From Paracoccaceae bacterium (GTDB lineage: Bacteria; Pseudomonadota; Alphaproteobacteria; Rhodobacterales; Rhodobacteraceae), in the NCBI GenBank assembly GCA_019429405.1, contig JAHYIZ010000004.1, forward strand, positions 1 to 64,000: DNA of 64,000 bases. Reading direction: 5' to 3'. Below, in pieces: positions 8,011-62,738 of this stretch. A program made the translations under genes and the position numbers. A model generated the notes under the pieces. That model searched no databases. It was not told the origin of the DNA and saw only the letters and a program-made list of their open reading frames with translations. Every line of letters begins with the position of its first letter. Within the stretch, counting starts at the first letter, position 1.

Positions 8011-9984
8011 TCAAGCCCCCGCCGGGGCGGGTGGGCTGGCCAGATCCACGATTTCAGCCATGATTCGGTTCAACTCAAAATCCTTGGGGGTGTAAACGCG
8101 CGCCACGCCGAAGCCGCGCAGCTTTTCGGCATCTTCTTCGGGGATGATGCCGCCCACCACCACCGGCACCGCGCCAAGGCCCGCCGCGCGCATGCGCGCC
8201 ATCACCTCTTCGATCAGCGGCAGGTGGCTGCCCGACAGGATCGACAGGCCGACCACATGTGCGCGGTCTTCTAGTGCCCGCGCCACGATCTGCTCTGGGG
8301 TCAGGCGGATGCCTTCGTAGGTAATGTCCATGCCACAATCGCGGGCACGAAAGGCGATCTGCTCGGCGCCGTTCGAGTGGCCATCAAGCCCCGGCTTGCC
8401 GACCACGAACTTGAGCCTGCGCCCCAGGCGCGCGCTGGCTGCATCGACCGCATCGCGCAGCGTTTCCAGCCCTTCAGTGCGGTTTGATGGCGCGGCCGAA
8501 ACACCGGTCGGCCCCCGGTATTCGCCATGCACCGCGCGCATCACGCCAGCCCATTCGCCCGTAGTAGCCCCGGCCTTTGCCGCCGCTACCGAAGCGGGCA
8601 AGATATTTTGCCCCGCAGTCGCTGCCGCCCGAAGGGCGGCCAGCGCTGCGGCCACCGCGCCAGCGTCGCGCCCCGCGCGCCAAGCATTCAGCCGCGCCAC
8701 CTGATCGGCCTCGACCCCCGGATCGACGATCAGAATGCCACCATCGCCCGCCGTCAGCGGCGAGGGCTCTGCCTCGGTCCAGCGGTTGACGCCGACCACC
8801 ACGGTCTCGCCCGCCTCGATCCGCGCGAGGCGTTCGGCGTTAGCCTCGACCAGCCGCCGCTTCATGTAATCAATCGCGGCAATCGCCCCACCCATCGCAT
8901 CAAGCGTGGCGAGCTCATCGCGCGCGCCTGCCTTCAGCGCCTCGACCTTGGCCGCGATCGCCGGGTTGCCGTCAAAGAGGTCGCCGTATTCCAGCAGGTC
9001 GGTTTCATAGGCGAGGATTTGCTGCATCCGCAGCGACCATTGCTGGTCCCACGGGCGCGGCAGGCCCAGCGCCTCGTTCCATGCGGGCAGTTGCACGGCG
9101 CGGGCACGGGCGTTCTTCGACAGCGTCACCGCGAGCATTTCCAGCAAGATGCGGTAAACGTTGTTTTCGGGCTGCTGTTCGGTCAGGCCAAGGCTGTTGA
9201 CCTGCACACCATAGCGAAAGCGGCGGTAGCGTTCCTCGGTTATGCCATATCGGTCGCGGCAGATCTCATCCCAAAGTTCGGTAAAGGCGCGCATCTTGCA
9301 CAGCTCGGTGACAAAGCGGATACCGGCGTTCACGAAAAACGAAATGCGCCCGACCATGGCGGGAAATGCCTCGGCCGCCACCTTGCCGCGCAGGTCATCA
9401 AGCACCGCAATGGCTGTGGCCAGTGCATAGGCCAGCTCCTGCTCGGGCGTCGCCCCGGCCTCTTGCAGGTGGTAGGAACAGACATTCATCGGGTTCCATT
9501 TGGGCATATGTTCGGCGGTGTAGGCGGCCACATCGGTGATCAGGCGCAGGCTGGCCTTGGGCGGGCAAATATAGGTGCCGCGCGAGAGGTATTCCTTGAT
9601 GATGTCGTTTTGCACGGTGCCTTGCAGTGCGGTCACGTCGGCGCCCTGTTCCTCGGCCACAGCGATGTAAAGCGCCAGCAGCCACGGCGCGGTGGCATTG
9701 ATCGTCATCGATGTGTTCATCTGATCGAGTGGGATGCCGTCAAACAGCGCGCGCATGTCGCCCAGATGGCAGACCGGCACGCCTACCTTGCCAACTTCGC
9801 CGCGCGCCAGCACATGGTCGCTGTCGTAGCCGGTCTGGGTCGGCAGGTCGAAGGCGACCGAAAGCCCGGTTTGCCCACGCGCGAGGTTAGCGCGGTAAAG
9901 CGCGTTTGACGCATGCGCGGTCGAATGCCCCGCATAGGTGCGAAACAGCCACGGGGCGTCTTTGCGCGCGGCGGGGGTGGTCAT
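8011..9984 (-). CDS. ecm: Ethylmalonyl-CoA mutase (B12-dependent)
   Basis: A 657-residue adenosylcobalamin-dependent mutase converting (2R)-ethylmalonyl-CoA to (2S)-methylsuccinyl-CoA in the ethylmalonyl-CoA pathway for acetyl-CoA assimilation. The catalytic barrel occupies about residues 1-480 (RTYAGHSTAHASN, then FDLPTQTGYDSDH), and the C-terminal B12 domain holds the base-off motif DGHSNG followed by GLSILSGSH and VVVGGIIPEEDAE. The identity rests on the sequence being a single-chain MeaA-like mutase and on the neighbouring crotonyl-CoA carboxylase/reductase gene; a methylmalonyl-CoA mutase is less likely because that is normally larger or two-subunit. The ATG at 9984 has GGAGG nearby. Bases 9985-10211 are the divergent promoter region. 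Confidence 0.93.
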   Translation of the reverse strand: MTTPAARKDAPWLFRTYAGHSTAHASNALYRANLARGQTGLSVAFDLPTQTGYDSDHVLARGEVGKVGVPVCHLGDMRALFDGIPLDQMNTSMTINATAPWLLALYIAVAEEQGADVTALQGTVQNDIIKEYLSRGTYICPPKASLRLITDVAAYTAEHMPKWNPMNVCSYHLQEAGATPEQELAYALATAIAVLDDLRGKVAAEAFPAMVGRISFFVNAGIRFVTELCKMRAFTELWDEICRDRYGITEERYRRFRYGVQVNSLGLTEQQPENNVYRILLEMLAVTLSKNARARAVQLPAWNEALGLPRPWDQQWSLRMQQILAYETDLLEYGDLFDGNPAIAAKVEALKAGARDELATLDAMGGAIAAIDYMKRRLVEANAERLARIEAGETVVVGVNRWTEAEPSPLTAGDGGILIVDPGVEADQVARLNAWRAGRDAGAVAAALAALRAAATAGQNILPASVAAAKAGATTGEWAGVMRAVHGEYRGPTGVSAAPSNRTEGLETLRDAVDAASARLGRRLKFVVGKPGLDGHSNGAEQIAFRARDCGMDITYEGIRLTPEQIVARALEDRAHVVGLSILSGSHLPLIEEVMARMRAAGLGAVPVVVGGIIPEEDAEKLRGFGVARVYTPKDFELNRIMAEIVDLASPPAPAGA

Positions 9985-10211
9985 GGCGGCCTCCGGTTCA
10001 TGTCGCAAGAAAGTTGCGGTTGACGCTGGTTTAGGCGAAAGATTGTGTCTCTGTCAATTCGCCGCGCCGCAGCGAGATGCGTTGCGCTGCGGCAGGGGAT
10101 TTATGTTGCAAATTATCGTGAGCAGGCAAATTCTGCCAGCATGGGCGTAGGGGTAGCGCCCTGGCCTTGGCGCGGGGATTGGCGCGCTGCAAGATATTGA
10201 GGGGTCTGATC

Positions 10212-10544
10212 ATGCTACATCGTTCCATGCTGCGTTTAGGGGTTGCCGCCGCGCTGATGGCGGCCACCGCACTTCCCGCCGCCGCGCTCGACCGTCGGGT
10301 GAGGATCGTCAACAACACCGGCTATACGATTGTCGAGTTCTATGGCTCGCATACCGATGCGCGCAGCTGGCAAGAAGACATTCTGGGCCGCGACGTGCTG
10401 CCCTCGGGGTCTTCGGTGAACATCAATTTTGACGATGGCACCGGCTACTGCATCTTCGATTTCAAGGCGGTTTTCAGCGACGGCGACGTTTTGACCAAAT
10501 ACGGGGTCAACGTGTGCGAGATCGGCACCTACACCTACCACTGA
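10212..10544 (+). CDS. Small secreted protein of unknown function
   Basis: A 110-residue exported protein. The signal peptide covers about residues 1-26, ending in ALPAAA before LDRRVRI. The mature part is beta-rich (RIVNNTGYTIVEFYGS, then LPSGSSVNINFDDGTGYCIFDFKAVF) and has two cysteines that could pair. Similar proteins are common in Rhodobacterales and have sometimes been mislabelled argininosuccinate lyase; there is no lyase motif here. The ATG at 10212 follows GAGGGG at 7 bases, so I prefer it to the ORF start at 10167. It sits between ecm and ccr but there is no evidence of a role in that pathway. Confidence 0.82.
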   Translation: MLHRSMLRLGVAAALMAATALPAAALDRRVRIVNNTGYTIVEFYGSHTDARSWQEDILGRDVLPSGSSVNINFDDGTGYCIFDFKAVFSDGDVLTKYGVNVCEIGTYTYH

Positions 10545-10730
10545 TCTTTGCCCCGAAGGCCGAGGGCCGGGTGCGCCAGCGCCCACCCTGCTTTGCGTTC
10601 GTGAAGTCATAAAATTACAAAATAACCACGTCAGGCATTGCATTATTGCGCGGGCAACCGTATTCCCTGTGCAAACGCCCCGATTCTGCGCTGCGGCATT
10701 GCCCGCGCGCACCTGCCGCAGGAGTGACGC

Positions 10731-12026
10731 ATGGCTCTCGACCCCAAACCCGAAATCGCCCCTTACGACGCGCTGCGGAAAGACCTTTACGAGATCGGCG
10801 AGATGCCCCCGTTGGGGCATGTTCCGGCCAAGATGTATGCCTGGGCGATCCGGCGTGAGCGCCACGGCGAGCCGGAACGCGCGATGCAGGTCGAGGTGGT
10901 CGATACCTGGCAGGTCGACAGCCACGAGGTGCTGGTGATGGTGATGGCCGCCGGGGTTAACTACAATGGCGTCTGGGCCGGGCTTGGCACCCCTGTCAGC
11001 CCGTTTGACGGCCATAAGCAGCCCTATCACATTGCCGGGTCTGATGCCTCGGGGATCATCTGGGCGGTGGGCGACAAGGTCAAACGCTGGAAGGTGGGCG
11101 ACGAGGTCGTGATCCACTGCAATCAGGATGATGGCGACGACGAGGAATGCAACGGCGGCGACCCGATGTTCAGCCCCAGCCAGCGGATCTGGGGCTATGA
11201 AACGCCCGACGGAAGTTTTGCGCAGTTCACGCGTGTGCAGGCGCAGCAGTTGATGGCGCGGCCGCGCCATCTGACGTGGGAAGAATCGGCTTGCTACACA
11301 CTGACGCTGGCCACCGCCTACCGCATGTTGTTCGGCCACCGCCCGCATGTGCTCAAACCCGGCGACAATGTGCTGGTGTGGGGCGCCTCGGGGGGGCTGG
11401 GGTCATTCGCGATTCAGCTGATAAACGCCGCCGGAGCCAACGCGATCGGCGTGATTTCCGAAGAGGACAAGCGCCAGTTTGTGATGGATATGGGCGCCAA
11501 GGGCGTGATCAACCGCAAGAATTTCAGTTGCTGGGGGCAGATGCCGAAAGTGGGCACCCCCGAATATGCCGCATGGTTCAAGGAAACCCGCAAGTTCGGC
11601 GCCGCGATCTGGGAAATCACCGGCAAGGGCAACAATGTGGACATGGTGTTTGAACACCCCGGCGAGGCGACATTTCCGGTTTCGGTATTCGTGGTCAAGC
11701 GCGGCGGCATGGTGGTGATCTGCGCCGGCACCACGGGCTACAACCTGACCTTCGACGTGCGTTACCTCTGGATGCACCAGAAGCGTGTGCAGGGCAGCCA
11801 TTTTGCAAACCTCAAGCAGGCGAGTGCTGCCAACAAGCTGATGCTGGAGCGGCGGCTGGACCCGGCGATGAGCGAGGTCTTCCCCTGGGCCGAAATACCG
11901 GCGGCGCATACCAAGATGTACAAGAACCTGCATAAACCGGGCAACATGGCGGTGCTGGTGCAGGCACCGCGCCCCGGCCTGCGCACCTTTGAAGATGCGC
12001 TGGAGGCGGGGCAAGAGCAGCTCTGA
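10731..12026 (+). CDS. ccr: Crotonyl-CoA carboxylase/reductase
   Basis: A 431-residue MDR-superfamily enzyme that reductively carboxylates crotonyl-CoA with NADPH and CO2 to (2S)-ethylmalonyl-CoA, the key step of the ethylmalonyl-CoA pathway. Recognisable segments include MAAGVNYNGVWAGLGTPV, the GSDASGIIWAVGD substrate domain, and the nucleotide motif VLVWGASGGLGSFAIQL. The C-terminal QGSHFANLKQASAANKLM is typical of Ccr. The ATG follows CAGGAG. Ecm lies just beyond on the opposite strand, the arrangement expected for this pathway. Confidence 0.97.
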   Translation: MALDPKPEIAPYDALRKDLYEIGEMPPLGHVPAKMYAWAIRRERHGEPERAMQVEVVDTWQVDSHEVLVMVMAAGVNYNGVWAGLGTPVSPFDGHKQPYHIAGSDASGIIWAVGDKVKRWKVGDEVVIHCNQDDGDDEECNGGDPMFSPSQRIWGYETPDGSFAQFTRVQAQQLMARPRHLTWEESACYTLTLATAYRMLFGHRPHVLKPGDNVLVWGASGGLGSFAIQLINAAGANAIGVISEEDKRQFVMDMGAKGVINRKNFSCWGQMPKVGTPEYAAWFKETRKFGAAIWEITGKGNNVDMVFEHPGEATFPVSVFVVKRGGMVVICAGTTGYNLTFDVRYLWMHQKRVQGSHFANLKQASAANKLMLERRLDPAMSEVFPWAEIPAAHTKMYKNLHKPGNMAVLVQAPRPGLRTFEDALEAGQEQL

Positions 12027-12214
12027 CACGCGCCCTGATAAGTCGCCCACGCGATTGTGAATATGGCATGTGCGGGCGTGCCGTTGCGGGCGGCGCCCCT
12101 GCCGGTCCGCGTTGGCGCAGTTAATTATATGACGATAATAGATATTTCTTTCGATGCGGCAGGGCCGGGCGTGGCCGCGCGCCGCCGCGCCGCTGCCCTG
12201 CGCGCATTTGGCAC

Positions 12215-12228
12215 TTGATTTGGGTCAT
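12215..12228. promoter_or_regulatory. Fnr/Dnr-type box upstream of the CcdA-like gene
   Basis: The sequence TTGATTTGGGTCAT matches the Crp/Fnr-superfamily pattern TTGAT-N4-rTCAA at all but the last position of the right half. It lies 113 bases before the start codon at 12342, within the 315-base non-coding stretch 12027-12341, in which I see no other feature. A nearly identical box occurs at 15143-15156 before the secreted propeller gene. FnrL, Dnr and NnrR proteins bind such sites under low oxygen or NO; which one acts here cannot be told from the site alone. Confidence 0.55.
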
Positions 12229-12341
12229 GTTCCGGGTTGAACGCTTCGCCTAGGTCAGCGCCATCATCTGGCGCACGCGCCGCAGCAAATTGCCCGGCCG
12301 GGCGCCTGACAGCCGAAACCAGGCGATTGAGGAAAAAGAAC

Positions 12342-13757
12342 ATGACGATTGCAACCAATGACGCAAAATCGGCTGGCGTGACCCCGCCGAAATCCGGGAA
12401 ACCCGGTTTTGGCAAGGCGGTTCTGCTTGCCGTAACACTTGTTGTGACGCTTATTCTGGCCTCGGGTTGGCTGGTCATGCCCTATTTCTTCGAGGGCAAG
12501 ACGATCCTGACCGACATCTCGGAACAGGTTTCCTCGGGGCGCTCGGCGCAGCAGCGCACGCTTGGCCAGTTCATGACGCGCGCGCATAACGCGATCAGTG
12601 AAGATGGCGGGCAGGGGTTCGACGTCGATGCCATGTATGCCTCGCCCACCTATTTTGAGCGCACCAGTTCCGCCAAGGTGCGCGAGCGGTACGAACTCGA
12701 CAAGAACATCGTGTTCTTTGTCAATGAGGTCACCCATATCGATCTGTTGAATCAGGAACTGCCGCGGTTTGAGTTGCAGGTGGACGGGGTGCCCTATGAG
12801 CCGATCTTTCTTGATGGCCCGGTCTTTACCGACCACCACCGCACCACCGATGTGCGCTTTGCCCTGCAAGATGCGGCGGGCAACGACATCATCACCGATG
12901 CCACGAAAGAGCTGAAGCTTCTGGTCTGGAACAAATATGACGCCGAAGACGCGCCGCGCTCGCTGGTCTGGAACCTGCCGATCGAATACCCGGCGGCTGA
13001 AAACGTGCTGTCGTCGCCGACGCTGATTGCGGCACTTTCGGCGGGGCTGCTGTCGGCCACGCTGACGCCCTGCCTGCTGCAACTGCTGATCGTCTACATG
13101 GCGACGCTGACCGGGCTGAGTGCCGAGCAGATGTCGCGCGGCGATTCGGTGCCTGCGGTCACGCGGCGGCGGATGATTCTGATCGCCTTGACGTTTGTGG
13201 CGGGGTTCACGGCCTTCTACACCTTTGCGGGCGCGGTGATCGGCTATGCCGGGCGTTCGGCGCAGATCATCTTCGATTCCGCCAGCCGCGAAATGGCTGT
13301 GGGAACCGGCATTCTGGTGATCGTCATGGGTCTCTGGATGGGGATCAAGTCGCGCGCGCCGCTGGTATGCCGGATGCCGATGCCCAAGCAGGTCAGCGGC
13401 GGTGACAGCGGCGGTTATGTGCGCTCTTTCCTGCTTTCGGTCGGCTTCTCTCTGGGCTGCATGGTCTGCTTTTCGGGCGCCATCGTGGCCACGCTGCTGG
13501 TCTATGTCGGCATGCTCGGCTCGGCCACGGTGGGTGCCACGATCCTGTTCGTGTTCTCGATGGGGGTGGCGATTCCCTTCCTTGCCGCCGCTTTCTTCCT
13601 GTCGCGCACGATGAGCGCGATGCAGTGGCTCAGCCGCTACACGCCGCAGATCGGATTTGTCAGCATGGTCGTGATCGTCGCATTTGGTCTGGTGCTGGTG
13701 ACCGATAACTTCCACACGGTCAGCGACATCATCTACCCGTGGCTTGGGCTGAACTGA
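12342..13757 (+). CDS. CcdA/DsbD-like membrane protein with N-terminal periplasmic domain
   Basis: A 471-residue membrane protein. One N-terminal helix (about 25-46) is followed by a roughly 170-residue beta-rich extracytoplasmic domain (about 50-220, with a THVDL-like segment and TDHHRTTDVRF), then a multi-helix domain of the CcdA/DsbD type. The thiol pair expected for electron transfer across the membrane is present: Cys244 in LTPCLLQLL and Cys373/Cys376 in GFSLGCMVCFSG. There is no thioredoxin domain at the C-terminus, unlike DsbD. CcdA proteins pass reductant to periplasmic thiols, for instance for cytochrome c or copper-site assembly, which fits the cytochromes downstream. Start chosen at 12342 because GAGGAA lies 7 bases upstream. 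An Fnr/Dnr-type box precedes it. Confidence 0.8.
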   Translation: MTIATNDAKSAGVTPPKSGKPGFGKAVLLAVTLVVTLILASGWLVMPYFFEGKTILTDISEQVSSGRSAQQRTLGQFMTRAHNAISEDGGQGFDVDAMYASPTYFERTSSAKVRERYELDKNIVFFVNEVTHIDLLNQELPRFELQVDGVPYEPIFLDGPVFTDHHRTTDVRFALQDAAGNDIITDATKELKLLVWNKYDAEDAPRSLVWNLPIEYPAAENVLSSPTLIAALSAGLLSATLTPCLLQLLIVYMATLTGLSAEQMSRGDSVPAVTRRRMILIALTFVAGFTAFYTFAGAVIGYAGRSAQIIFDSASREMAVGTGILVIVMGLWMGIKSRAPLVCRMPMPKQVSGGDSGGYVRSFLLSVGFSLGCMVCFSGAIVATLLVYVGMLGSATVGATILFVFSMGVAIPFLAAAFFLSRTMSAMQWLSRYTPQIGFVSMVVIVAFGLVLVTDNFHTVSDIIYPWLGLN

Positions 13758-13801
13758 TCGGTCGGGGCGCAACTTCAAAACGCAAGAAAAGGAAAATGGC
13801 A

Positions 13802-14974
13802 ATGAACGGCAAGGTTCTTGCGGGAATTGTGGTGGTCGCGTTGGCCGCAGCCGCTGCGGCGGGGTATTACTATTTCGCCGCGCCCAAAGCGGTGACGCTG
13901 GGCGACATCAAGCAATATGTCTTCGTTCAAAGCACGACCAAGCCCGAAATCGCGGTGATCGACGTGACCAAGGATGAACTGGTGACGCGCCTGCAACTTT
14001 CCCTGGTGCCCGACGATCTGCTGGTCGCCAAGGAACCCGAGCGCGTGATCTATTCGAACCGCGCCAGCAAAACGGTGCATGTCTACGATATTGCGACCCA
14101 GGCTGACGAGGCGGTGCTGACCTTACCGTTCAGCCCCGATACGTTGGTGCTCAGCCCTGACAGCCTGCTCTTGGTGGTTACCGACAGCACCACCGGCCAG
14201 CTTGGCATCATCAACCTTGATGACAACACCATCGCGCGGGTGCTGGAGCAGACCTTTACCCGGCCAAGCGCAGTCGCGTTTTCGGCGGATTCGATGCAGG
14301 TGCACCTTACCGACAGTGTGAAGGGCCAGATCGTGACCGTGGACGTGCTGTCGGGCTATGTGCTGGACCCGATCCAGATGTCGCTGGCCGTTGACCCTGC
14401 GCAAACGCCAAAAGGCGATGAGATGAGCGCGCTGACGCGCACGCCGAATTCACTTTTCGGGCTGGTGACCCTGAAGGCCGAGGGGCATCTTTCTGTCGTC
14501 AACATGCGGCAGTGGGCCGAGGAGTATCGGTTGCAGGTGGGCAAGGGTGCTTCGCGCGCCTATGGCACCGCCGATGGTGTCTTCATGATGGTCGGCAATG
14601 ACATCGACCGCACGGTTACCGTGATTTCCACCGATCCTTGGCAAGAGGTCGCCACGCTGCCGGGGGTTGGCGGTGTCACCTCGATTTCTACCGGATTCTT
14701 CGAGACGCTGGCTTTCGTCGTGTCGAATACAGAGAACAAGGTGGCGGTGATCGATCTGGAAAAGTTGGAGACGGTCGCGTTTCTTGATCTGCCGGGCGGG
14801 CCGGCCGAGGGCATTGCCGATGCCGACGGCAAGAAGCTCTATGTGCCGCTGCACGATTCGGGCGGGTTGGCGGTGATCGACATCTACAACAAGACGGTGC
14901 ACAAGATCATTGCGAACGTCACCGATGCGCCTTGGGGTGTGGCGATGGCGGCCACCAACAATTACTGCCACTGA
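13802..14974 (+). CDS. Membrane-anchored YVTN-type beta-propeller protein
   Basis: About 390 residues. A single N-terminal hydrophobic helix (about 5-25) acts as anchor or uncleaved signal, and the rest is a run of beta-propeller blades with repeats such as PEIAVIDVTKDELVTRL, KTVHVYDIATQ, GQLGIINLDDNTIARV and NKVAVIDLEKLETVAFLDLP. Family membership (YVTN/YncE-like) gives a fold, not an activity. No haem motif is present; the only cysteine and a histidine lie in the extreme C-terminus NNYCH. It starts 44 bases after the CcdA-like gene, so the two likely form one operon, closed by a strong terminator at 15000-15029. ATG 13802 has AAGG at better spacing than ATG 13796. Confidence 0.82.
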   Translation: MNGKVLAGIVVVALAAAAAAGYYYFAAPKAVTLGDIKQYVFVQSTTKPEIAVIDVTKDELVTRLQLSLVPDDLLVAKEPERVIYSNRASKTVHVYDIATQADEAVLTLPFSPDTLVLSPDSLLLVVTDSTTGQLGIINLDDNTIARVLEQTFTRPSAVAFSADSMQVHLTDSVKGQIVTVDVLSGYVLDPIQMSLAVDPAQTPKGDEMSALTRTPNSLFGLVTLKAEGHLSVVNMRQWAEEYRLQVGKGASRAYGTADGVFMMVGNDIDRTVTVISTDPWQEVATLPGVGGVTSISTGFFETLAFVVSNTENKVAVIDLEKLETVAFLDLPGGPAEGIADADGKKLYVPLHDSGGLAVIDIYNKTVHKIIANVTDAPWGVAMAATNNYCH

Positions 14975-14999
14975 CAGTTTGGCAAGCTGAAATGAACCG

Positions 15000-15029
15000 G
15001 GGCGTCGGCGGGTGCCGGCGCCCATTTTT
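15000..15029 (+). terminator. Rho-independent terminator after the membrane-anchored propeller
   Basis: A GC-rich hairpin with 9 of 10 pairs, GGGCGTCGGC (15000-15009) and GCCGGCGCCC (15014-15023), with a 4-base loop, is followed directly by ATTTTTC. It separates the CcdA-like/propeller unit from the secreted propeller gene. Confidence 0.8.
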
Positions 15030-15142
15030 CATGCGTGCTGCCCGCGAATCGGGCAAGTAGCGATGTTTGCGCTCGCAGATCAAAGATATGTGCAGCCTGC
15101 GTCAAAATGGCCAACCGATCACGCCGCCGCGAGCACCTAAAC

Positions 15143-15156
15143 TTGATCTATGTCAT
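15143..15156. promoter_or_regulatory. Fnr/Dnr-type box upstream of the secreted propeller
   Basis: The sequence TTGATCTATGTCAT has the same TTGAT-N4-GTCAT form as the box at 12215-12228, and both are preceded by AC. It ends 99 bases before the start codon of the secreted propeller gene, which leaves room for a class II promoter and a leader of about 60 bases. The recurrence in front of two transcription units of one cluster makes chance less likely. Confidence 0.6.
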
Positions 15157-15255
15157 ATAGTCGTGACCCCAATGCCTCTAGGTTCCGCCCAGACGTCAGT
15201 ACAGTCGGTTGACGCACAGCCTTCTGTGTCTGGCGCATTTTGAGAGGATCAACCC

Positions 15256-16746
15256 ATGAAACTTCGTGCTACTTCCTTTGCTTTGCTTGCGGGCGCTTCG
15301 ATGTTCGCGATGGCGTCTGCCGCCAGCGCCGACACCGCCGACATCCCCGGCTATGCCGAGGCCGTCGCCGCCGCGCAAAGCGGCGCCGCTGCTGCCTGGG
15401 CCAATGCTGAATCCGATCGTGGCGGCCTCTACCTGGTCGCCCAATTCGATTCGTCGGGCCCCGATGCCTGGGACCCGGTTGCCCACCCGCTGATCTACGC
15501 GACCTCGGAATCGCACGCCAACCCGAACCCGAACAAGGCGCTTGCGGGTGGCTGGGGCGGCTTCCAGCTGATCGACGCGATGACCAAGGAAAACGTCTAC
15601 GGCTTCGTCGGCGTCCAAACCGAGAAGACCTCGAAACTGCGCGGCGCGCCGCACGGTGTGGCGCTGTCGCCCGACGGCAAATGGGCCTACATCGGCTGGT
15701 CGGAAGTTGCCAACCCCGACGACGCCAGCGTGAACGCGTTCTCGTCCGTGGCCAACCCTTCGGCGACCGGCTTCGCGTCTTACGTCGCCGTCGTGAACGT
15801 TCGCACGATGAAGATCGACAAGCTGATGGTGCAAGAATCGCGCTTCCGCGGCGCCCCGCGCGCCCAGCGTCTGCACCACATCCAGTCGTGGACCGACGTT
15901 GACGGCAACGATCGCGTGGTTCTGCAGTGGGGCTTTGGCGCTGACGGCGGCCCGCACCATATCCTCGACCCGAAAGACAACAACCGCGTCGCGCGTTCGA
16001 TCACCTACGAAGACGTGCAGGTTATGGGTCACCCGTTCACCACGCCTTCGCCCGATGGCAAGACGCTCTATGTCTCGATCGGCTCGCCTGAAATCCGTGA
16101 CGCCGATTCGCACCACGCGGCGGGCATTGCCAAGGTCAACCTCGACACCGGCGCCGTGAAGAACATCATGGGCTTCGGCAACCACCCGATCGGCATCACC
16201 CACACCGAAGATGGCAAGTTCACCTATGTCATCGACGGCCACGGCTCGATGGTGTTCAAGCTTGATGACGAAAACAACAAAATCGTTGGCCGCACCTCGG
16301 CTGGCGTTGGCGGCCCCTACGGGATCTGCATGAACTGGGATGAAACCCTGGGCTTCGCGGTCGGCAAGGGCGAAGGCTCGCACAACATCGGTTCGGTGCT
16401 GGGTGTGCTCGACCTCAAGACCTTCACCCCGAAGCGCGCTGGCCTGTTCCAGCAGCCGATCTTCCTCGGCGGTTCGGCCAACTCGGTTGACCACTGCATC
16501 CTGCATCCCGATCCGGCTGTGAACGAACTCTGGATTTCGAACATGAACGGCTGGGAAACCATCGTTCTTGATCTGAACACCATGGCCCCGAAAGCCTGGA
16601 TCCCGACGGCGCACGGCGGCGACACCCACTCGGGCGGCTTCTACCGCTTTGACGGCTGGAATGCCCGCGTCGAATCCGACATGGGCGGCGTGAAATCGGA
16701 AGAAATGCGCGAACTGGTTCGCGCCGCGAAAGCCGCAGCGAAGTAA
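15256..16746 (+). CDS. Secreted His-rich seven-bladed beta-propeller protein, possible metalloenzyme
   Basis: A 496-residue exported protein with a Sec signal peptide (cleavage near ASA at 23-25). It reads as a beta-propeller in which histidines recur near blade starts: His133 (APHGVALSPDG), His207/208 (RLHHIQSW), His259 (GHPFTTPSPDG), His310 and His316 (GNHPIGITHTEDG), His413/417 (DHCILHPDP) and His453/458 (AHGGDTHSGG), at mostly 40-60 residue spacing. Copper propeller enzymes such as nitrous oxide reductase and thiocyanate dehydrogenase place their copper ligands in this way, so a metal site is a fair inference, but I do not recognise a characterised family. There is no CuA motif and no haem motif. 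It has its own Fnr/Dnr-type box, a good ribosome site (AGAGGATCAACCC), and its own terminator. Confidence 0.85.
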   Translation: MKLRATSFALLAGASMFAMASAASADTADIPGYAEAVAAAQSGAAAAWANAESDRGGLYLVAQFDSSGPDAWDPVAHPLIYATSESHANPNPNKALAGGWGGFQLIDAMTKENVYGFVGVQTEKTSKLRGAPHGVALSPDGKWAYIGWSEVANPDDASVNAFSSVANPSATGFASYVAVVNVRTMKIDKLMVQESRFRGAPRAQRLHHIQSWTDVDGNDRVVLQWGFGADGGPHHILDPKDNNRVARSITYEDVQVMGHPFTTPSPDGKTLYVSIGSPEIRDADSHHAAGIAKVNLDTGAVKNIMGFGNHPIGITHTEDGKFTYVIDGHGSMVFKLDDENNKIVGRTSAGVGGPYGICMNWDETLGFAVGKGEGSHNIGSVLGVLDLKTFTPKRAGLFQQPIFLGGSANSVDHCILHPDPAVNELWISNMNGWETIVLDLNTMAPKAWIPTAHGGDTHSGGFYRFDGWNARVESDMGGVKSEEMRELVRAAKAAAK

Positions 16747-16777
16747 GCCGCGCCTGAGCGACTACCGAAACGACATG

Positions 16778-16811
16778 GCCCGCAGCATCGCAAGGTGCTG
16801 CGGGCATCTTT
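16778..16811 (+). terminator. Rho-independent terminator after the His-rich propeller gene
   Basis: A perfect 10-bp stem, GCCCGCAGCA (16778-16787) with TGCTGCGGGC (16796-16805), has an 8-base loop and is followed by ATCTTT. The stem is strong although the T-run is short. It makes the propeller gene monocistronic. Confidence 0.75.
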
Positions 16812-16964
16812 CACCGGGGCCGGATCGCCGGGCGGTGTGCAGAGCGGGGCAGGATCATGCCTCACATCTGCCCGACTGCCCGTTTGGCCCGCTTTCAATT
16901 TTCGAGGTGGCTGCTATGGTTCCGCCAAAGTGATGAACCGGGTCACCACCAAGCGAGGGAACTG

Positions 16965-17597
16965 ATGCAGCAGCACAAGAAATACGAGTGGCATGTGCCT
17001 TTCATGAAAACCGGCATGGCGGCAGTCGTGGCCTTGACCCTGGGCAGCGGCGGCGCCTTGGCGCAATCCGCCCCGGCGGTGCTTTTTCCCGAGATGAACG
17101 AGCAGGAGCTTCGCGGCAAGCATATCTATGACGAATCGGCGGGCGATGTCGGGTGCCAGATGTGCCACGGTCCGCTCGGCAACGGCTCGATCGAACAGGG
17201 TGCGCCGGGGATCAAGGGTGTCTTGCGGTCCGCATTCGACAGCGCGCTGTCGGGTGCCGTTCCGATGATGGAGTTCTTCACGCTGAACGGAAAAGAGCAG
17301 GACGATGTCTTTGCCTACCTTCAGGTGCTGAGCAAGGTCGAGGTGCTGACCTACGACCCCGAGGCGACCGAGGGCCAGAAGATCTACGAGGAGCTCGCAG
17401 GCGGTGTTGGCTGCCAGGCCTGCCACGGCATGGATGCGGCGGGCATCATCGGCCCCGATATTCGCGGCAAGGACCCGGTCGCGATCATGGCAGCTATGAA
17501 GGCCGTGCCCGACATGGGCATTATCGAGCTGACCGAAGCGCAAGTTGACCAGGTCGCAGCCTACCTGCGCCAGCTGCACGAAGCAGAATCGCACTAG
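16965..17597 (+). CDS. Di-haem cytochrome c
   Basis: A 210-residue secreted cytochrome with two CXXCH haem sites: CQMCH (Cys64-His68) and CQACH (Cys150-His154). An N-terminal signal peptide ends near GGALAQ (residue 34). Each haem site begins a small class-I-like domain of about 80 residues; the second domain closely resembles the mono-haem cytochrome encoded at 17951. I use the ATG at 16965, preceded by GAGGGA, because the frame from 16857 would place about 36 odd residues before the signal. It lies 218 bases after the propeller gene, with a terminator between, so it has its own promoter. It probably shuttles electrons with the propeller protein; no direct proof. Confidence 0.88.
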   Translation: MQQHKKYEWHVPFMKTGMAAVVALTLGSGGALAQSAPAVLFPEMNEQELRGKHIYDESAGDVGCQMCHGPLGNGSIEQGAPGIKGVLRSAFDSALSGAVPMMEFFTLNGKEQDDVFAYLQVLSKVEVLTYDPEATEGQKIYEELAGGVGCQACHGMDAAGIIGPDIRGKDPVAIMAAMKAVPDMGIIELTEAQVDQVAAYLRQLHEAESH

Positions 17598-17950
17598 GCC
17601 AGAGTACAACAGATTCGGGCGCGCGGTTCCCTCAAGCGGATCTGCGCGCCTGAAACATTAGCGCACGCACTTGTGAAGCTCGCGCAGACGACCCTATATC
17701 ATTGTTTTATCTAATGTAATATTGCGAGTGGCGAAAACATATATGTTGCCTGCGACATTCCCGCGCGTTGGCAGGGGGCGCATTTGATGCAATATCTGCA
17801 CTGTGCCCGCCGCAATGACTGGCAGCACCCGTGAGGGGTGGTGGCGGGCCGGGTTCGGGAGCGGCGCTTGCCCCGCCCTGAGGCGCCAGGGACGATCAGA
17901 AAGACCCGAAGCCCAAGCCGGGTTAGGGCCAGAAAAAGGTGGAACGCACG
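17598..17950. other. Non-coding stretch between the two cytochrome genes, with a palindrome
   Basis: No gene is visible in these 353 bases. An AT-rich patch (about 17697-17750) in otherwise GC-rich DNA includes the perfect 12-bp palindrome AACATATATGTT at 17736-17747, about 200 bases before the mono-haem cytochrome gene. This is a plausible promoter or operator area. A weak GC hairpin (GGCGCGC with GCGCGCC, about 17620-17650) follows the di-haem gene without a T-run. Confidence 0.4.
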
Positions 17951-18265
17951 ATGATTTATAACGCAAAGATTGCCGCTGCACTGGTCGGCATGTTCGCGCT
18001 GGCGACACCGGCGCTTGCCCAGGCGCCCGAGCTGACTGCGGATGAAGCTGCGGGCAAGGTGATTTTTGAGGAGACCGCAGGCGGCGTCGGCTGCGCCTCG
18101 TGCCACGGCATGAAAGGCCAAGGCGACATCGGCCCCGCGATTGCGGGCCAGACTGTCGAGAACATCAAGCTGCAGATGGAAACCAACGAAAACATGGGTT
18201 TCATCGAGCTGACCGATGATGAATTGACGCAGGTCGAGGCCTATCTGGCCGTGCTCAACCGCTAG
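17951..18265 (+). CDS. Mono-haem cytochrome c, class I-like
   Basis: A 104-residue exported cytochrome. The signal peptide ends at ATPALAQ (residue 24), and the single haem site CASCH starts at Cys48. The sequence around it, GKVIFEETAGGVGCASCHG, is close to the second haem domain of the upstream di-haem protein (GQKIYEELAGGVGCQACHG), and both end in FIELT/IIELT plus a helix, so one probably arose by duplication of the other. A ribosome site (AAGGTGG) sits 8 bases before the ATG at 17951, better placed than the GTG at 17939. A strong terminator follows. Confidence 0.88.
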   Translation: MIYNAKIAAALVGMFALATPALAQAPELTADEAAGKVIFEETAGGVGCASCHGMKGQGDIGPAIAGQTVENIKLQMETNENMGFIELTDDELTQVEAYLAVLNR

Positions 18266-18288
18266 GGCGCACTCGCGCAAACCTCTGG

Positions 18289-18331
18289 CTTCAGCCGCCG
18301 TGGCGCTTCGCCGCAGGCGGCTGAAGTTTTT
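18289..18331 (+). terminator. Rho-independent terminator after the mono-haem cytochrome
   Basis: A perfect 11-bp stem, CTTCAGCCGCC (18289-18299) with GGCGGCTGAAG (18316-18326), is followed by five T. It cleanly separates the cytochrome units from the flavin unit that starts at 18417. Confidence 0.87.
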
Positions 18332-18416
18332 CTGGCAGGGCAAAACACCCGTTCACCTGCGCCCCGCAATCGCGTAGTCTGGCCGCCAGCGTCCCCGACC
18401 CGTTACGGAGATCTCG

Positions 18417-18914
18417 ATGCGCCATCGCCCCGTGCCCCCCGTATTGGCCACGCTGGCCCTGACCCTGACCCTTGCGCTCGCGGCGCCCGCCGCTGCGCGC
18501 GAGATCAGGTTGACCACCACCTTGGCGCGCAACTTCATCGGCGGTGCCTATGCGGCGGTCTATCTGGTCGATGCCGAGGGTAAATACGTCCAGACGCTGC
18601 ATGTGTTCGGCTACAACACCCGTTATTATTCGCATTTCCGCAATTGGTGGCGCGCGACCGATCAGGCCGGGGCAGACCGCGCCGCCGAAGTTGATGGCAA
18701 ATCGGGCGCCAGTGTGCGGCGCGGCGAGGTGGCGGAACTGACGCTTGATCTGGCGGACGAGCTTTTCGACGCGGGATTTGTGCTGCGCATCGACAGCACG
18801 CTTTATGAGGGGCGCGACTACGGCACCGACGCCGAGGTACCTCTGGCCGCAGCTTCGGCCGGGGTGGAGGTGGACGGGCGCGGCTACGTCAAAAGCCTTC
18901 GGTTCGACCTCTAG
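18417..18914 (+). CDS. DUF2271 periplasmic protein with flavinylation motif
   Basis: A 165-residue exported protein with a signal peptide ending near PAAAR (residue 28) and the beta-rich DUF2271 fold. Residues 93-99 read DGKSGAS, which matches the Dxx[S/T]GA[S/T] motif that ApbE enzymes modify by attaching FMN through a phosphoester bond; Ser99 would carry the flavin. DUF2271 proteins have been reported in flavinylation gene clusters. The gene starts an operon (GGAG before the ATG) with a PepSY flavoprotein reductase and an ApbE-type flavin transferase, so it probably receives FMN and relays electrons in the periplasm. The FMN attachment itself is inferred. Confidence 0.85.
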   Translation: MRHRPVPPVLATLALTLTLALAAPAAAREIRLTTTLARNFIGGAYAAVYLVDAEGKYVQTLHVFGYNTRYYSHFRNWWRATDQAGADRAAEVDGKSGASVRRGEVAELTLDLADELFDAGFVLRIDSTLYEGRDYGTDAEVPLAAASAGVEVDGRGYVKSLRFDL

Positions 18915-18931
18915 GCGGGGCCGGGCAGCAC

Positions 18932-21160
18932 ATGCAGCGCAGGCTTCACGCGGTTTTGGGGGTTGCTGCGGCGCTATTGCTGGTGGCGCTGGCGGTCTCG
19001 GGGGCGCTGCTGGCGCCCGGCCCGGCCTATGACCGCGCGCAGGTTTCGGTGCCGCCGCGCGGCGCGGTGCGTGTGGCTGACCTCGCCGCGGCGGTGGTGG
19101 CGCGCTACCCCATGGCGGAACAGATCAGCCGCAAGCCCTCTGGCCGGGTGGTGGTCGATTATACCGAGGGTGATGAGCCGCTGAGCATGACGGTTGACCC
19201 GATGACGGCCGAACCGATTTCGCGCTATGCGCCGTCGGCTTTTACCACCCGTGTCGGCGATCTTCACCGCGCCTTCGGGATGGGCGACGCGCGCCTTGGG
19301 CACGGGCTTGCGGGCCTTGGCGCGGTGGCGCTAGTGCTGGTGGCGCTGTCGGGGTTCAGGCTTCTTGTCACCCGCATGGGCGGGCTGCGAATGCTGCGCG
19401 CGCCAGTGCGCGGCACACCGCTGCAACGGCTGCATGTGGTCTTGAGCCGGTCGAGCTTTCTGGCGCTGCTGCTGCTGGCGCTAAGCGGCGGATACATGTC
19501 CGCCGCCTTCTTCGGCCTGCTTCCGAGCGGAATGGAGGCGCAGCCCGGCTACCCCGCAACGCTCGGCGGCACGGCGCCGCTGCCGGTGGACCAGATGCCG
19601 GCGTTGCAGGCGGTCGACCTGCGCGATCTGCGCAAGCTGGTCTTCCCCTATGACGGCGACCCGACCGAGCCTTATGAGCTGCTGACCAGCACTGGCGCAG
19701 GTTTCATTGATCAGGCAAGCGGCGAAGTGGTTTCGTGGTTGCCGCATTCGGGCGCGCGGCGCGCCTATGCGGTGGTGCTGGCGCTGCACACCGGGCAGGG
19801 TCTCTGGTGGCTGGCGCTGCTGACCGGGGCGGCGGCGCTGGCAGTTCCGCCACTTGCCTTTTCGGGGGTGGTGCTGTGGTGGCGGCGGCGGCGCGCGCGC
19901 CCGCGCATTCGGCGCAACGTGGCGCTGGCCAATGCCGATACGGTCATTCTGGTCGGGTCTGAGGGCAACTCGACCTGGGGCTTTGCCTATACGCTGCAAA
20001 ACGCGCTGACGGCGGCGGGGCATTTTGTGCATGTGGCCGAGATGAACCAGCTTTCGGCGGCGCATTGCGGTGATCGGCGGATGTTCATTCTGACCGCGAC
20101 CTATGGCGATGGCGCGGCCCCTGCCACCGCGCGCAGGTTCCTTGAGGTATTGCCCAAGCTTCGGGCAACGCCAAAGCGTGGCGTGACGTTGTTGGGCTTT
20201 GGCGACCGCGATTTTGGCCATTTCTGCTATTTCGCGGTTGAGGTCGAGGCGGCGCTGATTGCCAAGGGTTGGCCGATCTTTTCGCACCTCGAAACCATCA
20301 ACCGCGAATCGCCGCAGGAGTTCGCGCGATGGGGCGATGCCATTGCGCCGCATTTGGGGCATGAGTTGCGGCTGGTGCATATTGCCGAAACGCCGCGCCG
20401 CCAGCCGTTCGAGCTGATCTCACGGCAGGATTACGGCGCCGACGTGGGCGCGCCCTCGGCAATCATGCGCTTTGGCGCGCCGCCCGATGCGCGACAGGGC
20501 TTTTGGCAAAAGCTGACCGGGCGCGCCGCGCTGCCCTATTTTGAGGCGGGCGATCTGATTGGCATCGTGCCACCGGGTTCCAACATGCCGCGCTATTATT
20601 CGATCGGCTCGGCCTCGGCGGATGGCTTTCTGGAGTTTTCGGTGCGTGAGCATGAACACGGGCTGTGTTCGCGATTTCTGCACGGGCTGAAACCGGGCGA
20701 CCGGATTTCGGCCTTTGTGCGGCCCAACCCCGAATTCCGGCTCGATGCCGGGCGCAACCCGGTGATCATGGTGGGCGCGGGCTGCGGTGTGGGGCCGCTG
20801 GCCGGGTTCATCCGCGCCAACAAGGCGCGACGCCCGATGCGTCTCTACTTTGGCGCGCGCGACCCGGATTCGGATTTTCTCTACCGCGCCGAAATGATGC
20901 AGTGGCTTTCCGAGGGCAAGTTGGGCGCGCTGGTCACCGCCTTCAGCCGCAGCTCTGAAAAGGCCTATCTGCAAGACAAACTGCGCGCCGATGCCGAGGT
21001 GCTGCGTACCATGGTCAAGGCGGGCGCGCAGGTAATGGTGGTGGGCAGCCGCGAAATGGCGCGCGATGTGATGGCGGCGATGGATGATGTACTGGCGCCG
21101 GTCGGTCTATCGGCCGCCAAGCTGAAAGCCGATGGCCGCTATGTCGAAGACATCTACTGA
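18932..21160 (+). CDS. PepSY-membrane / flavodoxin / ferredoxin-reductase fusion
   Basis: A 742-residue transmembrane reductase. The first about 330 residues are PepSY-associated membrane helices (signal-like helix at 8-30, others near 132-150, 177-203, 288-325), with His122, His134, His178 and His296 in helices as possible haem ligands. A flavodoxin domain follows (about 345-490; VGSEGNSTW, TYGDG), then an FAD/NAD(P)H module of CysJ type (about 500-742; RYYSIGSA, VGAGCGVGPLAGF, ending YVEDIY). The soluble part should face the cytoplasm and take electrons from NAD(P)H to the membrane and beyond. It starts 17 bases after the DUF2271 gene and overlaps the flavin transferase gene. Iron-uptake PepSY reductases share this design, so ferric reduction is an alternative. 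Confidence 0.87.
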   Translation: MQRRLHAVLGVAAALLLVALAVSGALLAPGPAYDRAQVSVPPRGAVRVADLAAAVVARYPMAEQISRKPSGRVVVDYTEGDEPLSMTVDPMTAEPISRYAPSAFTTRVGDLHRAFGMGDARLGHGLAGLGAVALVLVALSGFRLLVTRMGGLRMLRAPVRGTPLQRLHVVLSRSSFLALLLLALSGGYMSAAFFGLLPSGMEAQPGYPATLGGTAPLPVDQMPALQAVDLRDLRKLVFPYDGDPTEPYELLTSTGAGFIDQASGEVVSWLPHSGARRAYAVVLALHTGQGLWWLALLTGAAALAVPPLAFSGVVLWWRRRRARPRIRRNVALANADTVILVGSEGNSTWGFAYTLQNALTAAGHFVHVAEMNQLSAAHCGDRRMFILTATYGDGAAPATARRFLEVLPKLRATPKRGVTLLGFGDRDFGHFCYFAVEVEAALIAKGWPIFSHLETINRESPQEFARWGDAIAPHLGHELRLVHIAETPRRQPFELISRQDYGADVGAPSAIMRFGAPPDARQGFWQKLTGRAALPYFEAGDLIGIVPPGSNMPRYYSIGSASADGFLEFSVREHEHGLCSRFLHGLKPGDRISAFVRPNPEFRLDAGRNPVIMVGAGCGVGPLAGFIRANKARRPMRLYFGARDPDSDFLYRAEMMQWLSEGKLGALVTAFSRSSEKAYLQDKLRADAEVLRTMVKAGAQVMVVGSREMARDVMAAMDDVLAPVGLSAAKLKADGRYVEDIY

Positions 21161-22067
21161 ACGCGTCACCCTGCGCGGCCCGGCGATGGCGGCGGAATGG
21201 ACTGCGGTTTGCCATGGCGTCTGGCCGGGGCTGCGTGCGGCGCTGGCGACGGCGGTCGAGGATGTCGAACAGCAGATGTCGAACTGGCGGCAGGGGTCTG
21301 ACCTCAATCGGCTGAACGCGGCGGCGCCCGGCGCATGGGTGGCGCTGCCCGCCGATCTGATGGCGGTGCTGGCGATGGGGTTGGAAATTGGCGCGGCGTC
21401 GGGTGGTGCGTTCGACATGGCGCTGGGCGATCTGGTGGCGGCGTGGGGTTTTGGCCCGCCTGCGCGGCGCCCCGATGAGGCCGCGATTCGTGCGTTGACT
21501 GGGCGCCCCCGCCGCCCTTGTGCCGAGGTGCTGCAACTTGGCGCGGGGTGCGCGCGGCGGCTGGAAGCGGTGCGGTTCGATCTGTCGGGCATCGCCAAAG
21601 GGTTTGGCGTTGATGCTTTGGCGCGGGTGATGGCGGCGTGGGGCATTGCCGACTACCTTGTGGGCATTGACGGCGAAATGCGCGCGGGCGGCACCAAGCC
21701 CGGCGGTGTGCCGTGGAGCGTGGCAATTGAGGCGCCCGATTATGACGCGCCGGGGGTTGCTGGCACGGTGGCGCTGCACGACCGCGCCATTGCCACCTCT
21801 GGCGACACGCGCAATTTCGTGCGCGTCGGCACCGCGCGGGTGGGCCATACCATGCACCCCGCCCGCGCCGCACCGCTGCAAAACGGGGTCGCGGCGGTCA
21901 GCGTGCTGGCCGCGACCTGTGCTGCGGCCGATGCCTGGGCCACGGCGCTGATGGTGCTTGGCGAGCAAGCCGGGGCGGCGCTGGCACAGCGGCAGGGGCT
22001 GGATGCGCTGTTTCAGATGCGCGTGGGCAAGGGGTTGCGGCGCATCGGGGTCGGGCTTTTTGCCTGA
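21141..22067 (+). CDS. apbE: FAD:protein FMN transferase (ApbE family)
   Basis: About 308 residues with ApbE features: GGAFDMALGDLVAAWGF, FDLSGIAKGFGVDALARV (flavin-binding loop), the metal-binding TSGDTRNF and the ADAWATALMVLG segment near the end. ApbE proteins attach FMN from FAD to Thr/Ser of target proteins; the DUF2271 product encoded two genes upstream carries a matching motif. The start is uncertain: ATGs at 21132, 21141 and 21186 are possible, and the gene overlaps the preceding one. None of them gives a signal peptide or lipobox, which is unusual because most ApbE enzymes act in the periplasm; see the findings. Confidence 0.88.
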   Translation: MSKTSTERVTLRGPAMAAEWTAVCHGVWPGLRAALATAVEDVEQQMSNWRQGSDLNRLNAAAPGAWVALPADLMAVLAMGLEIGAASGGAFDMALGDLVAAWGFGPPARRPDEAAIRALTGRPRRPCAEVLQLGAGCARRLEAVRFDLSGIAKGFGVDALARVMAAWGIADYLVGIDGEMRAGGTKPGGVPWSVAIEAPDYDAPGVAGTVALHDRAIATSGDTRNFVRVGTARVGHTMHPARAAPLQNGVAAVSVLAATCAAADAWATALMVLGEQAGAALAQRQGLDALFQMRVGKGLRRIGVGLFA

Positions 22068-22114
22068 CCCTTTTCGCTTTGCGCCTGCGTTGCGCCACAG
22101 TTAGGGTCCGCGCC

Positions 22115-23653: not shown

Positions 23654-24538
23654 TCAGCTGCCGCCGCGCTGGCCGTAATATAGCCCCACCACATGCTCGG
23701 CCTCGGCAAAGAACAGCCAGCGCGCGGCCAGTGCGCCGGGCAGATGCAGCGCGGTCGCCAGCACCACGGTTAGCGGCCCCGGCGGCAGGCCAAGCACCAC
23801 GGCCAGCGGCGCCACCACCGCAAGCCCGAAGGCAATGGCGCGCAGCTTTTGCGCGTGCTTGCGCGCGACGATGTAGATCATCTCGCGCATCAGGTAGTTC
23901 GGCCCGGTGTGTGGCTGCTCGAACACCCGCACGGTGCCGATTGTGCCAAGCCCTGTGGCTGAACCGATGCTGGCCCCCACTGCTGCAAAGCGCCCGTCGC
24001 CAATGCGCCAGTGTGCGGTCAGCAGGGCGCCCAGAACCACCAGCATAACCGCAGCCCAAAGCCGATTGCCCGCCAGTATCGCGCCCCCGGCCAGCGCGAA
24101 GAACTGGAACATGACAGGCGTGCCCCAGTGGTTCCAGCGCGGCACAGTCTTTAGCTGTGCGTAGATCATCGAGGTGGTGAAAACGGTGGCAAGGCACATC
24201 ACCGCCCCCGCCAAACCCCATGCGCGCGGCCAGCCAAGGCCGAGCCAGTCCGACAGCGCCATGGGCGCGAGGAACACGAGTGTTGCCACCGAGGCCCATG
24301 CCTCGCGGCTCAGCCAGCTGCTGCGCCACTGGCTAAAGGCTCGCAGCGCACGCTGCGGGTTGCCAAGGTGAAAGGCCGAGGCCAGAAGCCCGACAACCGC
24401 CAGCCCGTAGCCGATAAACCAAAGCGCGAAGGCGGCCCAGCCGCTGGCGCCAACCAGCCCAGCGGCAAGGAATGCAAGAAACCCGAACCCCAGCCCCGAA
24501 AGCACCGTGAACAGAATGACCGAGGGCGCGGGGTGCAT
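23654..24538 (-). CDS. soeC: Sulfite dehydrogenase membrane anchor subunit
   Basis: A 294-residue DmsC/NrfD-family membrane protein with about eight helices, ending AEHVVGLYYGQRGGS. It anchors the SoeAB catalytic subunits to the inner face of the cytoplasmic membrane and passes electrons to quinone. The ATG at 24538 overlaps the soeB stop (ATGA), so it is the last gene of soeABC. The gene identity is inferred from operon position and subunit type; DmsC-family anchors look alike, so DMSO reductase remains an alternative that the neighbouring sulfur genes argue against. Confidence 0.85.
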   Translation of the reverse strand: MHPAPSVILFTVLSGLGFGFLAFLAAGLVGASGWAAFALWFIGYGLAVVGLLASAFHLGNPQRALRAFSQWRSSWLSREAWASVATLVFLAPMALSDWLGLGWPRAWGLAGAVMCLATVFTTSMIYAQLKTVPRWNHWGTPVMFQFFALAGGAILAGNRLWAAVMLVVLGALLTAHWRIGDGRFAAVGASIGSATGLGTIGTVRVFEQPHTGPNYLMREMIYIVARKHAQKLRAIAFGLAVVAPLAVVLGLPPGPLTVVLATALHLPGALAARWLFFAEAEHVVGLYYGQRGGS

Positions 24539-53387: not shown

Positions 53388-53423
53388 CGGGCGGAGAGAT
53401 CAGCGCAGTCGGGCGCGCTTGCG

Positions 53424-53480
53424 GGGCCGGTGCCGGGGGCCAGCCCCCGGACCCCCGGGGTATTTGTGCGTTGAAGATGG
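53424..53480. repeat. Intergenic palindromic element
   Basis: A GC-rich palindromic stretch between convergent mnmH and selD, with the stem CCGGGGG (53433-53439) and CCCCCGG (53444-53450), then a CCCCCGGGG-TATTTG end. Similar GGGGTATTTG elements occur in many intergenic spaces of Rhodobacterales. It could act as a bidirectional terminator, but this is not proven. Confidence 0.45.
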
Positions 53481-53502
53481 TGTGGCGCCGGTGGGGCGCA
53501 CT

Positions 53503-61217: not shown

Positions 61218-61226
61218 GGGGCAGGC

Positions 61227-62729: not shown

Positions 62730-62738
62730 GGGGGGGTA

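Follow-up and report, generated by a model that had tools for sequence, protein, structure and literature searches.

The first 64,000 nucleotides of contig JAHYIZ010000004.1 of a Paracoccaceae bacterium (GenBank assembly GCA_019429405.1), here called the window, carry a cluster of eight genes around P0001, which encodes a secreted, histidine-rich, seven-bladed propeller. The explanation that best accounts for the whole of the data, with a chance barely above even, is that P0001 belongs to a new family of propeller oxidoreductases that hold a metal, probably copper, in the pore and exchange electrons with cytochrome c. It builds on a defined gene set, a protein family with conserved pore histidines, a predicted fold, the linkage of the genes and the fusion of cytochromes to the propeller. 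An initial annotation had joined the propeller, two cytochromes c, a CcdA-like assembly protein and a flavin unit in one redox pathway; this interpretation stands in part, for the propeller, the cytochromes and the CcdA-type partner, and falls for the flavin unit. The propeller, its membrane-bound partners and the cytochromes are encoded as follows.

12342-13757, + strand: P0002, DsbD/CcdA-type membrane protein with an Ig-like extracytosolic domain (DsbD_TM, 47 bits, cut-off 27)
13802-14974, + strand: P0003, membrane-anchored YncE-like propeller with an N-terminal anchor (PF21783, 52.8 bits)
15256-16746, + strand: P0001, secreted His-rich seven-bladed propeller, proposed pore-metal (copper) oxidoreductase (conservation, model, profiles)
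16965-17597, + strand: P0004, secreted di-haem cytochrome c (two CXXCH motifs, CQMCH and CQACH)
17939-18265, + strand: P0005, secreted mono-haem cytochrome c (one CXXCH motif, CASCH)

P0001 contains 18 histidines, matches no Pfam family and has no NCBIfam match near any cut-off, and a search against solved structures returned generic YVTN propellers only. Short peptide patterns, run against 84,980 species genomes, gave ten loci with homologues, 76-82% identical in Rhodobacteraceae and 46-63% identical in Acidobacteriota, Gemmatimonadota, Chloroflexota and Actinomycetota. The family is rare: a close relative occurs in two of 296 sampled genomes of the bacterial family (G000 and G012), and a wider profile finds members in 2 of 398 Pseudomonadota, 3 of 297 Acidobacteriota and 5 of 251 Chloroflexota genomes, counts that are lower bounds since scoring was confined to the few top candidates of each genome. 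The same searches brought out a second subfamily, about 26-31% identical to the window type (subfamily I), and a tree sets the window-type propellers apart from the remaining sequences. No propeller homologue was found in the plasmid collection. Some genomes hold several clusters. In the window genome, G000, a second one (L046, G000:C61:104000-120378, at 9456-16130) lies about 95 kb away and reaches the contig end; in it a P0003-like propeller faces a cytochrome c and four propellers of subfamily II in tandem. Another member of the Rhodobacteraceae, G1006, has four parallel clusters (L067, L068, L069 and L070) of a CcdA-like protein, an anchored propeller and a cytochrome-propeller, and, because their outside neighbours differ, several substrates are suggested.

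Conservation was read from an alignment of 33 diverse propellers of both subfamilies, 13-14 of them window-type. His207, His413, His458, Asp412 and Lys371 are invariant (33/33), His133, His208 and Glu373 are kept in 32 and Tyr355 in 30 of the 33, and a motif Lys371-Gly-Glu373 is conserved in the family. Window-type propellers additionally conserve His259, His316, His376 and His417 and have His or Asn at residue 310; the pore set of P0001 comprises His133, 207, 208, 259, 310, 413 and 458, and subfamily II is without His259 and His310. In the control propeller P0003 no pore histidine is conserved. The predicted structure of P0001 (mean predicted local distance difference test, pLDDT, 74; predicted template modelling score 0.81) has its innermost strands at 135-137, 206-213, 257-264, 311-316, 411-416 and 460-466, and places His133, the 207/208 pair, 259, 310, 413, 458 and Tyr355 each at the N-terminal end of a blade's innermost strand or beside it, at one mouth of the pore. 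The proposal that the histidine-rich propeller is a periplasmic oxidoreductase is probably right.

Its electron partner is indicated by gene fusions. A fused cytochrome c domain follows the propeller, at its C-terminus, in Acidobacteriota as well as in two G1006 propellers of subfamily I, and precedes it, at the N-terminus, in propellers of subfamily II from G210 and G1006; as a separate gene, cytochrome c adjoins the propeller in the window, L001, L002, L009 and L046. Because the fusions run in opposite orientation in different lineages, direct electron exchange between propeller and cytochrome c is well evidenced, and the earlier view that the cytochromes c carry electrons gains from fusion at either end. 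P0004 probably starts at the ATG at 16965, not at 16857. Secreted proteins beside two subfamily-II propellers (L050 8016-8651; L051 5543-6820, the latter with a Reeler domain) carry an unusual C-x4-C-H motif (CAGAGCH and CNQAGCH, respectively), possibly a haem site.

The same family could consist of non-catalytic metal binders that store, deliver or sense copper for cytochromes or oxidases, and this is the alternative that survives best, at a low probability. Copper chaperones and cupredoxins do occur near some propeller loci, which speaks for copper in the catalytic reading as well: two SCO1 genes and one PCu(A)C gene in the neighbourhood of L007, a cupredoxin near the propeller in L048 and L074, and in L004 a P0002 homologue that carries a fused, weakly matching cupredoxin-like domain. 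Moreover, the third of the four tandem propellers of L046 has lost three site residues (Gln133, Gln208 and Asp355 are found there), so the site is dispensable in at least one copy. However, the cytochrome c fusions at both ends in different lineages point to electron transfer, and an active site fits better than a metal store because Lys371, Glu373, Tyr355 and Asp412 match the histidines in invariance.

The likeness of an oxidoreductase of this kind to nitrous oxide reductase (NosZ) is seen in fold and profile comparisons. The ligands of the CuZ site of NosZ sit at innermost-strand ends near the pore. The P0001 model aligns with NosZ chains 5i5j, 5i5i, 5i5m and 1fwx in linear order over residues 75-470 (VIA-align, Z 25-27) with 15-16% identity, which is among the highest identities among the matches listed. 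When the 33 propellers were compared profile to profile with 11 NosZ sequences, with the P0003 propeller as control, the linear blade order scored 44, other rotations 35 and the control 34-40; rotated blade registers were rejected, their scores being no better than the control. The alignment pairs His133 with NosZ His129/130, His207/208 with His178, His310 with His326 and His413 with His433, and His458 and NosZ His494 are both, by order, in the last blade. Compared with the seven histidines of CuZ, P0001 has its histidine ring at corresponding strand ends, with four sites paired, a shifted pattern and a Tyr at the place of His382.

Part of the same data would also suit a propeller with a tetrapyrrole instead of a copper cluster, haem d1 for instance, which it would bind or process in the manner of NirS, NirN and NirF: all three Nir proteins rank near the top of the Foldseek matches, NirF is matched weakly by the superfamily profile (E 6e-7), and in L007 a radical SAM gene lies upstream. 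Yet sequence searches place NirF behind generic YVTN propellers, the window cluster has no nir gene, and a ring of five to seven pore histidines with one pair is typical of NosZ and thiocyanate dehydrogenase (TcDH), whereas NirF and NirN use one or two axial histidines; a tetrapyrrole is given about one chance in eight.

Against a copper cluster in the pore of P0001 weigh several observations. The model is of middling confidence, with pLDDT below 50 at 373-378 and 404-411, and the convergence of the histidine side chains is deduced from the positions of the strands that carry them. YncE-type propellers without NosZ-like sites likewise rank high in the fold search, the hhalign probability to NosZ of 63-82% denotes marginal sequence similarity, and profile comparison with TcDH reached E 0.17-0.27 over one stretch, below significance. 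Subfamily II, given its pore residues, may bind another set of metals or another cofactor. Finally, the link to SCO1 and PCu(A)C comes from one locus (L007), and within the window cluster itself there is no copper chaperone gene.

The most constant companion of the propeller is P0002. Its start is the ATG at 12342, shared with orthologues, and a TTG start at 12237 is an artefact. A P0002 homologue adjoins the propeller in 15 of the 18 loci with enough flank to judge, in Rhodobacteraceae, Acidobacteriota and Chloroflexota (the window, L002, L008, L047, L067, L068, L069, L070, L004, L049, L050, L051, L007, L009 and L074), and is not adjacent in L046, L048 and L075. Full-length P0002 was found in three of 342 genomes of the order, all three with a propeller beside it, one of them being G1006 with its four clusters. 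On these sequence grounds P0002 is a true, dedicated propeller partner across phyla. Like DsbD/CcdA transporters, it has a cysteine-bearing membrane domain that scores above the DsbD_TM cut-off; it differs from them in an additional membrane cysteine pattern (C343, C373xxC376) and in an extracytosolic domain with His and Glu and without Cys. In an alignment of nine sequences across phyla, Cys244, 343, 373 and 376 are invariant, all four in the membrane domain, as are E129, H132 and H165-H166-R167 in the extracytosolic domain; a thiol-active extracytosolic cysteine pair of the DsbD type was looked for in P0002 and is not present. Because the extracytosolic domain is Cys-free with these invariant residues, the role of P0002 shifts toward the metal site or membrane electron transfer, so that of the proposed assembly function the dedicated partnership remains, with assembly plausible, and thiol chemistry is not favoured. 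The extracytosolic domain is modelled as a beta-sandwich; candidates for its fold were Ig-like sandwiches only, at Z <8, of which CopC (E 0.05) was one of many, and no claim was drawn. A second P0002 paralogue in G000 (L071, contig C17, 12503-13397) is cut by the end of C17 and may be part of the L046 cluster, which likewise runs into a contig end.

P0003 is the second partner. In G210 and in each of the four G1006 clusters its homologue separates P0002 from the His-propeller, and every Rhodobacteraceae cluster with P0002 also has one, at identities down to 24%. Nine of nine homologues have Cys-His at the very C-terminus, within an ending Asn-Tyr/Ile-Cys-His; by reading, four of the nine carry a twin-Arg signal, and Ile marks this twin-arginine translocation (Tat) group.

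In the mechanism that we infer, P0001 would be the catalytic subunit of a family of periplasmic oxidoreductases, in which a His-His pair at the pore entrance and single histidines from other blades would bind a metal cluster, most probably of copper, as NosZ and TcDH do. Electrons would pass between this cluster and cytochrome c, provided as separate cytochromes here and as a fused domain in relatives, while some Chloroflexota and Actinomycetota have a cupredoxin nearby. P0002, whose extracytosolic domain bears His and no Cys, and P0003, which ends in Cys-His, may build the metal site, supply its metal or maintain it in the reduced state.

The three remaining genes of the cluster form the flavin unit.

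18417-18914, + strand: P0006, DUF2271 protein, ApbE flavinylation substrate with SGAS at 96-99 (PF10029, 82 bits; motif)
18932-21160, + strand: P0007, PepSY membrane domain fused to flavodoxin and an FAD/NAD(P) reductase (PF03929, PF00258, PF00970, PF00175)
21132-22067, + strand: P0008, ApbE flavin transferase (PF02424, 236 bits)

The domains of P0007 are PepSY_TM, Flavodoxin_1, FAD_binding_6 and NAD_binding_1. A PepSY-type protein, a DUF2271 protein with [ST]GA[ST] and ApbE, each above its cut-off, make this a flavinylation system, and PepSY/DUF2271/ApbE sets are a described extracytosolic flavin relay (PMC8238504). P0006-P0008 resemble the known systems in their domains and in the SGAS motif, and differ in lying beside a propeller cluster, with no TonB, DUF4198 or VIT1 partner there. 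Electrons would run from NAD(P)H through the PepSY-flavodoxin-reductase to DUF2271, flavinylated by ApbE, and may feed the same periplasmic pool as the propeller. In its full form, the initial annotation had NAD(P)H electrons leave through this unit to the propeller and the cytochromes as one pathway. The direct downstream position of the flavin genes in the window, L001 and L002 and the flavinylation site of P0006 would agree with that; however, flavin genes stand beside the propeller only in loci of the Phaeovulum clade (the window, L001 and L002/L052), and none of the other propeller clusters examined has them, not even L069, which among subfamily-I clusters outside the clade is the closest. 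In other settings such a flavin set is linked to iron reduction (PMC8238504). A single pathway of this extent is thus improbable, about as much so as the tetrapyrrole. Recurrence of the neighbours across genomes had been proposed as the test, with propellers lacking cytochromes or flavin genes as the counter-evidence; cytochromes recur and the flavin genes do not. The cluster is best described as a core module of P0001 and P0002 plus a local addition, the flavin unit, which may share the periplasmic electron pool. The weakest alternative makes the propeller the large subunit of a complex like the quinone-cofactor amine dehydrogenases, with a DsbD-like maturation protein and a di-haem cytochrome: propeller relatives are weakly similar to the NCBIfam models TIGR03907 and TIGR02658, and a propeller occurring together with a DsbD-like protein, a di-haem cytochrome and a cupredoxin is reminiscent of the mau genes, but no open reading frame (ORF) for a small Cys/Trp-rich, quinone-bearing subunit was present in any cluster gap, and we know of no role for conserved pore histidines in these enzymes.

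All eight genes share the + strand, span 12342 to 22067 and have no further gene among them; ORF coordinates and domain matches confirm the set as first described, in one direction and uninterrupted by unrelated genes. The gene order is kept in L002/L052 (UBA6213) and in L001, from a metagenome-assembled genome (MAG) of Phaeovulum, and because of this the arrangement is not due to chance; the nearest P0001 homologue is in a Phaeovulum MAG, the same genus as the window genome. A literature search found no described system with this gene set, in agreement with the initial claim that no such pathway had been described. Upstream lie, by reading, ethylmalonyl-CoA-mutase-like and crotonyl-CoA-carboxylase-like genes, and downstream a RecD-like helicase (AAA_30). 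Terminator-like sites number 14 in the region against 9.2 expected, two of them being relevant here.

15000-15023, + strand: terminator-like hairpin with T run between P0003 and the His-propeller (10 pairs, 9 G-C)
22047-22071, + strand: terminator-like hairpin with T run at the cluster end

Since these strong hairpins are accompanied by a palindrome at 16778-16805, more than one transcription unit is suggested; the hairpins suggest "cluster" as the correct term, a single operon not being established by them.

The wider surroundings include sulfur-related genes. A SoeABC/PhsA-type molybdoenzyme operon (window 23654-28049, - strand) flanks the cluster on the opposite strand, and in an acidobacterial locus (L051, 10910-12633) Sulf_transp (YeeE/YedE type) and SoxY/desulfoferrodoxin-like genes follow the propeller-P0002 pair. 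A role in sulfur oxidation was considered on these grounds and set aside, as SoxY is absent from 14 of the 16 propeller genomes, the window genome among them. Further along the window, at 52296-55680, a rhodanese-domain protein (SelU-like by reading) is convergent with or adjacent to a Pyr_redox_2 and AIR-synthase fusion (SelD-like), likely a selenium-modification pair, and 56088-63257 (+ strand) encodes a membrane complex of hydrogenase-4/group-4 type (Proton_antipo_M, Complex1_49kDa, Oxidored_q6).

To our knowledge, few enzymes have a multi-copper site in a propeller pore, and their chemistry is demanding and directed at small molecules, namely nitrous oxide (N2O) reduction or thiocyanate oxidation. 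With a chance somewhat short of even, the P0001 family would be a further class of pore-copper propellers beside NosZ and TcDH, with two assembly partners of its own, spread thinly over at least five phyla, with several clusters per genome in some Rhodobacteraceae, and acting in the periplasmic redox chemistry of a small nitrogen or sulfur compound. Were it such a lineage, its defined ligand pattern, its natural cytochrome c partner and its constant membrane partner would open both the substrate and the building of such metal clusters to direct tests, and up to four parallel clusters per genome suggest one chassis for several substrates. Proteins listed as "YncE-like", or unlisted, hide probable enzymes.

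With NosZ of clades I and II, P0001 shares an end-to-end seven-bladed propeller, pore-end histidines with one His-His pair plus single histidines, and a PHG..(S)PDGK-type motif. It differs in having its histidine pair on the second blade and a Tyr where NosZ has His382, in its own partner genes, and in ending after the propeller, whereas NosZ has a C-terminal CuA cupredoxin domain, in place of which the P0001 loci have cytochrome c. Against the NosZ model TIGR04246 (cut-off 625 bits) P0001 gave no match at E 0.01 and the L007 homologue 15.5 bits. Identity with NosZ was rejected for the want of CuA and of a model match, and the similarity, read from sequences, could be convergence. The window genome carries a separate, true NosZ on contig C16, because of which N2O reduction by P0001, though possible, would be redundant there. 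The lactonase-type L-NosZ of clade III (NF052460) is likewise a propeller-type protein, annotated as N2O reductase, with weak local similarity; membership was rejected, as P0001 gave no match and its relatives 24-41 bits against a cut-off of 700, and NF052460 itself resembles clade II NosZ.

TcDH is a seven-bladed propeller with three pore coppers and a cytochrome c acceptor (PMC9456337), in which seven histidines, with Lys and Glu, hold the metals (PMC6504805). It differs from P0001 in its Tat signal, that of P0001 being Sec, and in its neighbours, which are Cop or Cus, an ABC transporter and a sigma54 regulator (PMC5328954, PMC6504805). Identity with TcDH was not supported on sequence (E about 0.2): phmmer found no match between P0001 and PDB 5F75 or its relatives, and the absence of TcDH among the matches listed in PDB fold searches excludes nothing. 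Cyanase was not found in any of the 16 propeller genomes, which says little because Thioalkalivibrio hosts of TcDH have been reported without cyanase too (PMC6504805). What the two have in common is a secreted seven-bladed propeller, a cytochrome c partner, a histidine pair plus single histidines and a conserved Lys and Glu (PMC6504805, PMC9456337). Taken together, these comparisons suggest that the P0001 family probably works like NosZ and TcDH, as a further lineage of the same kind.

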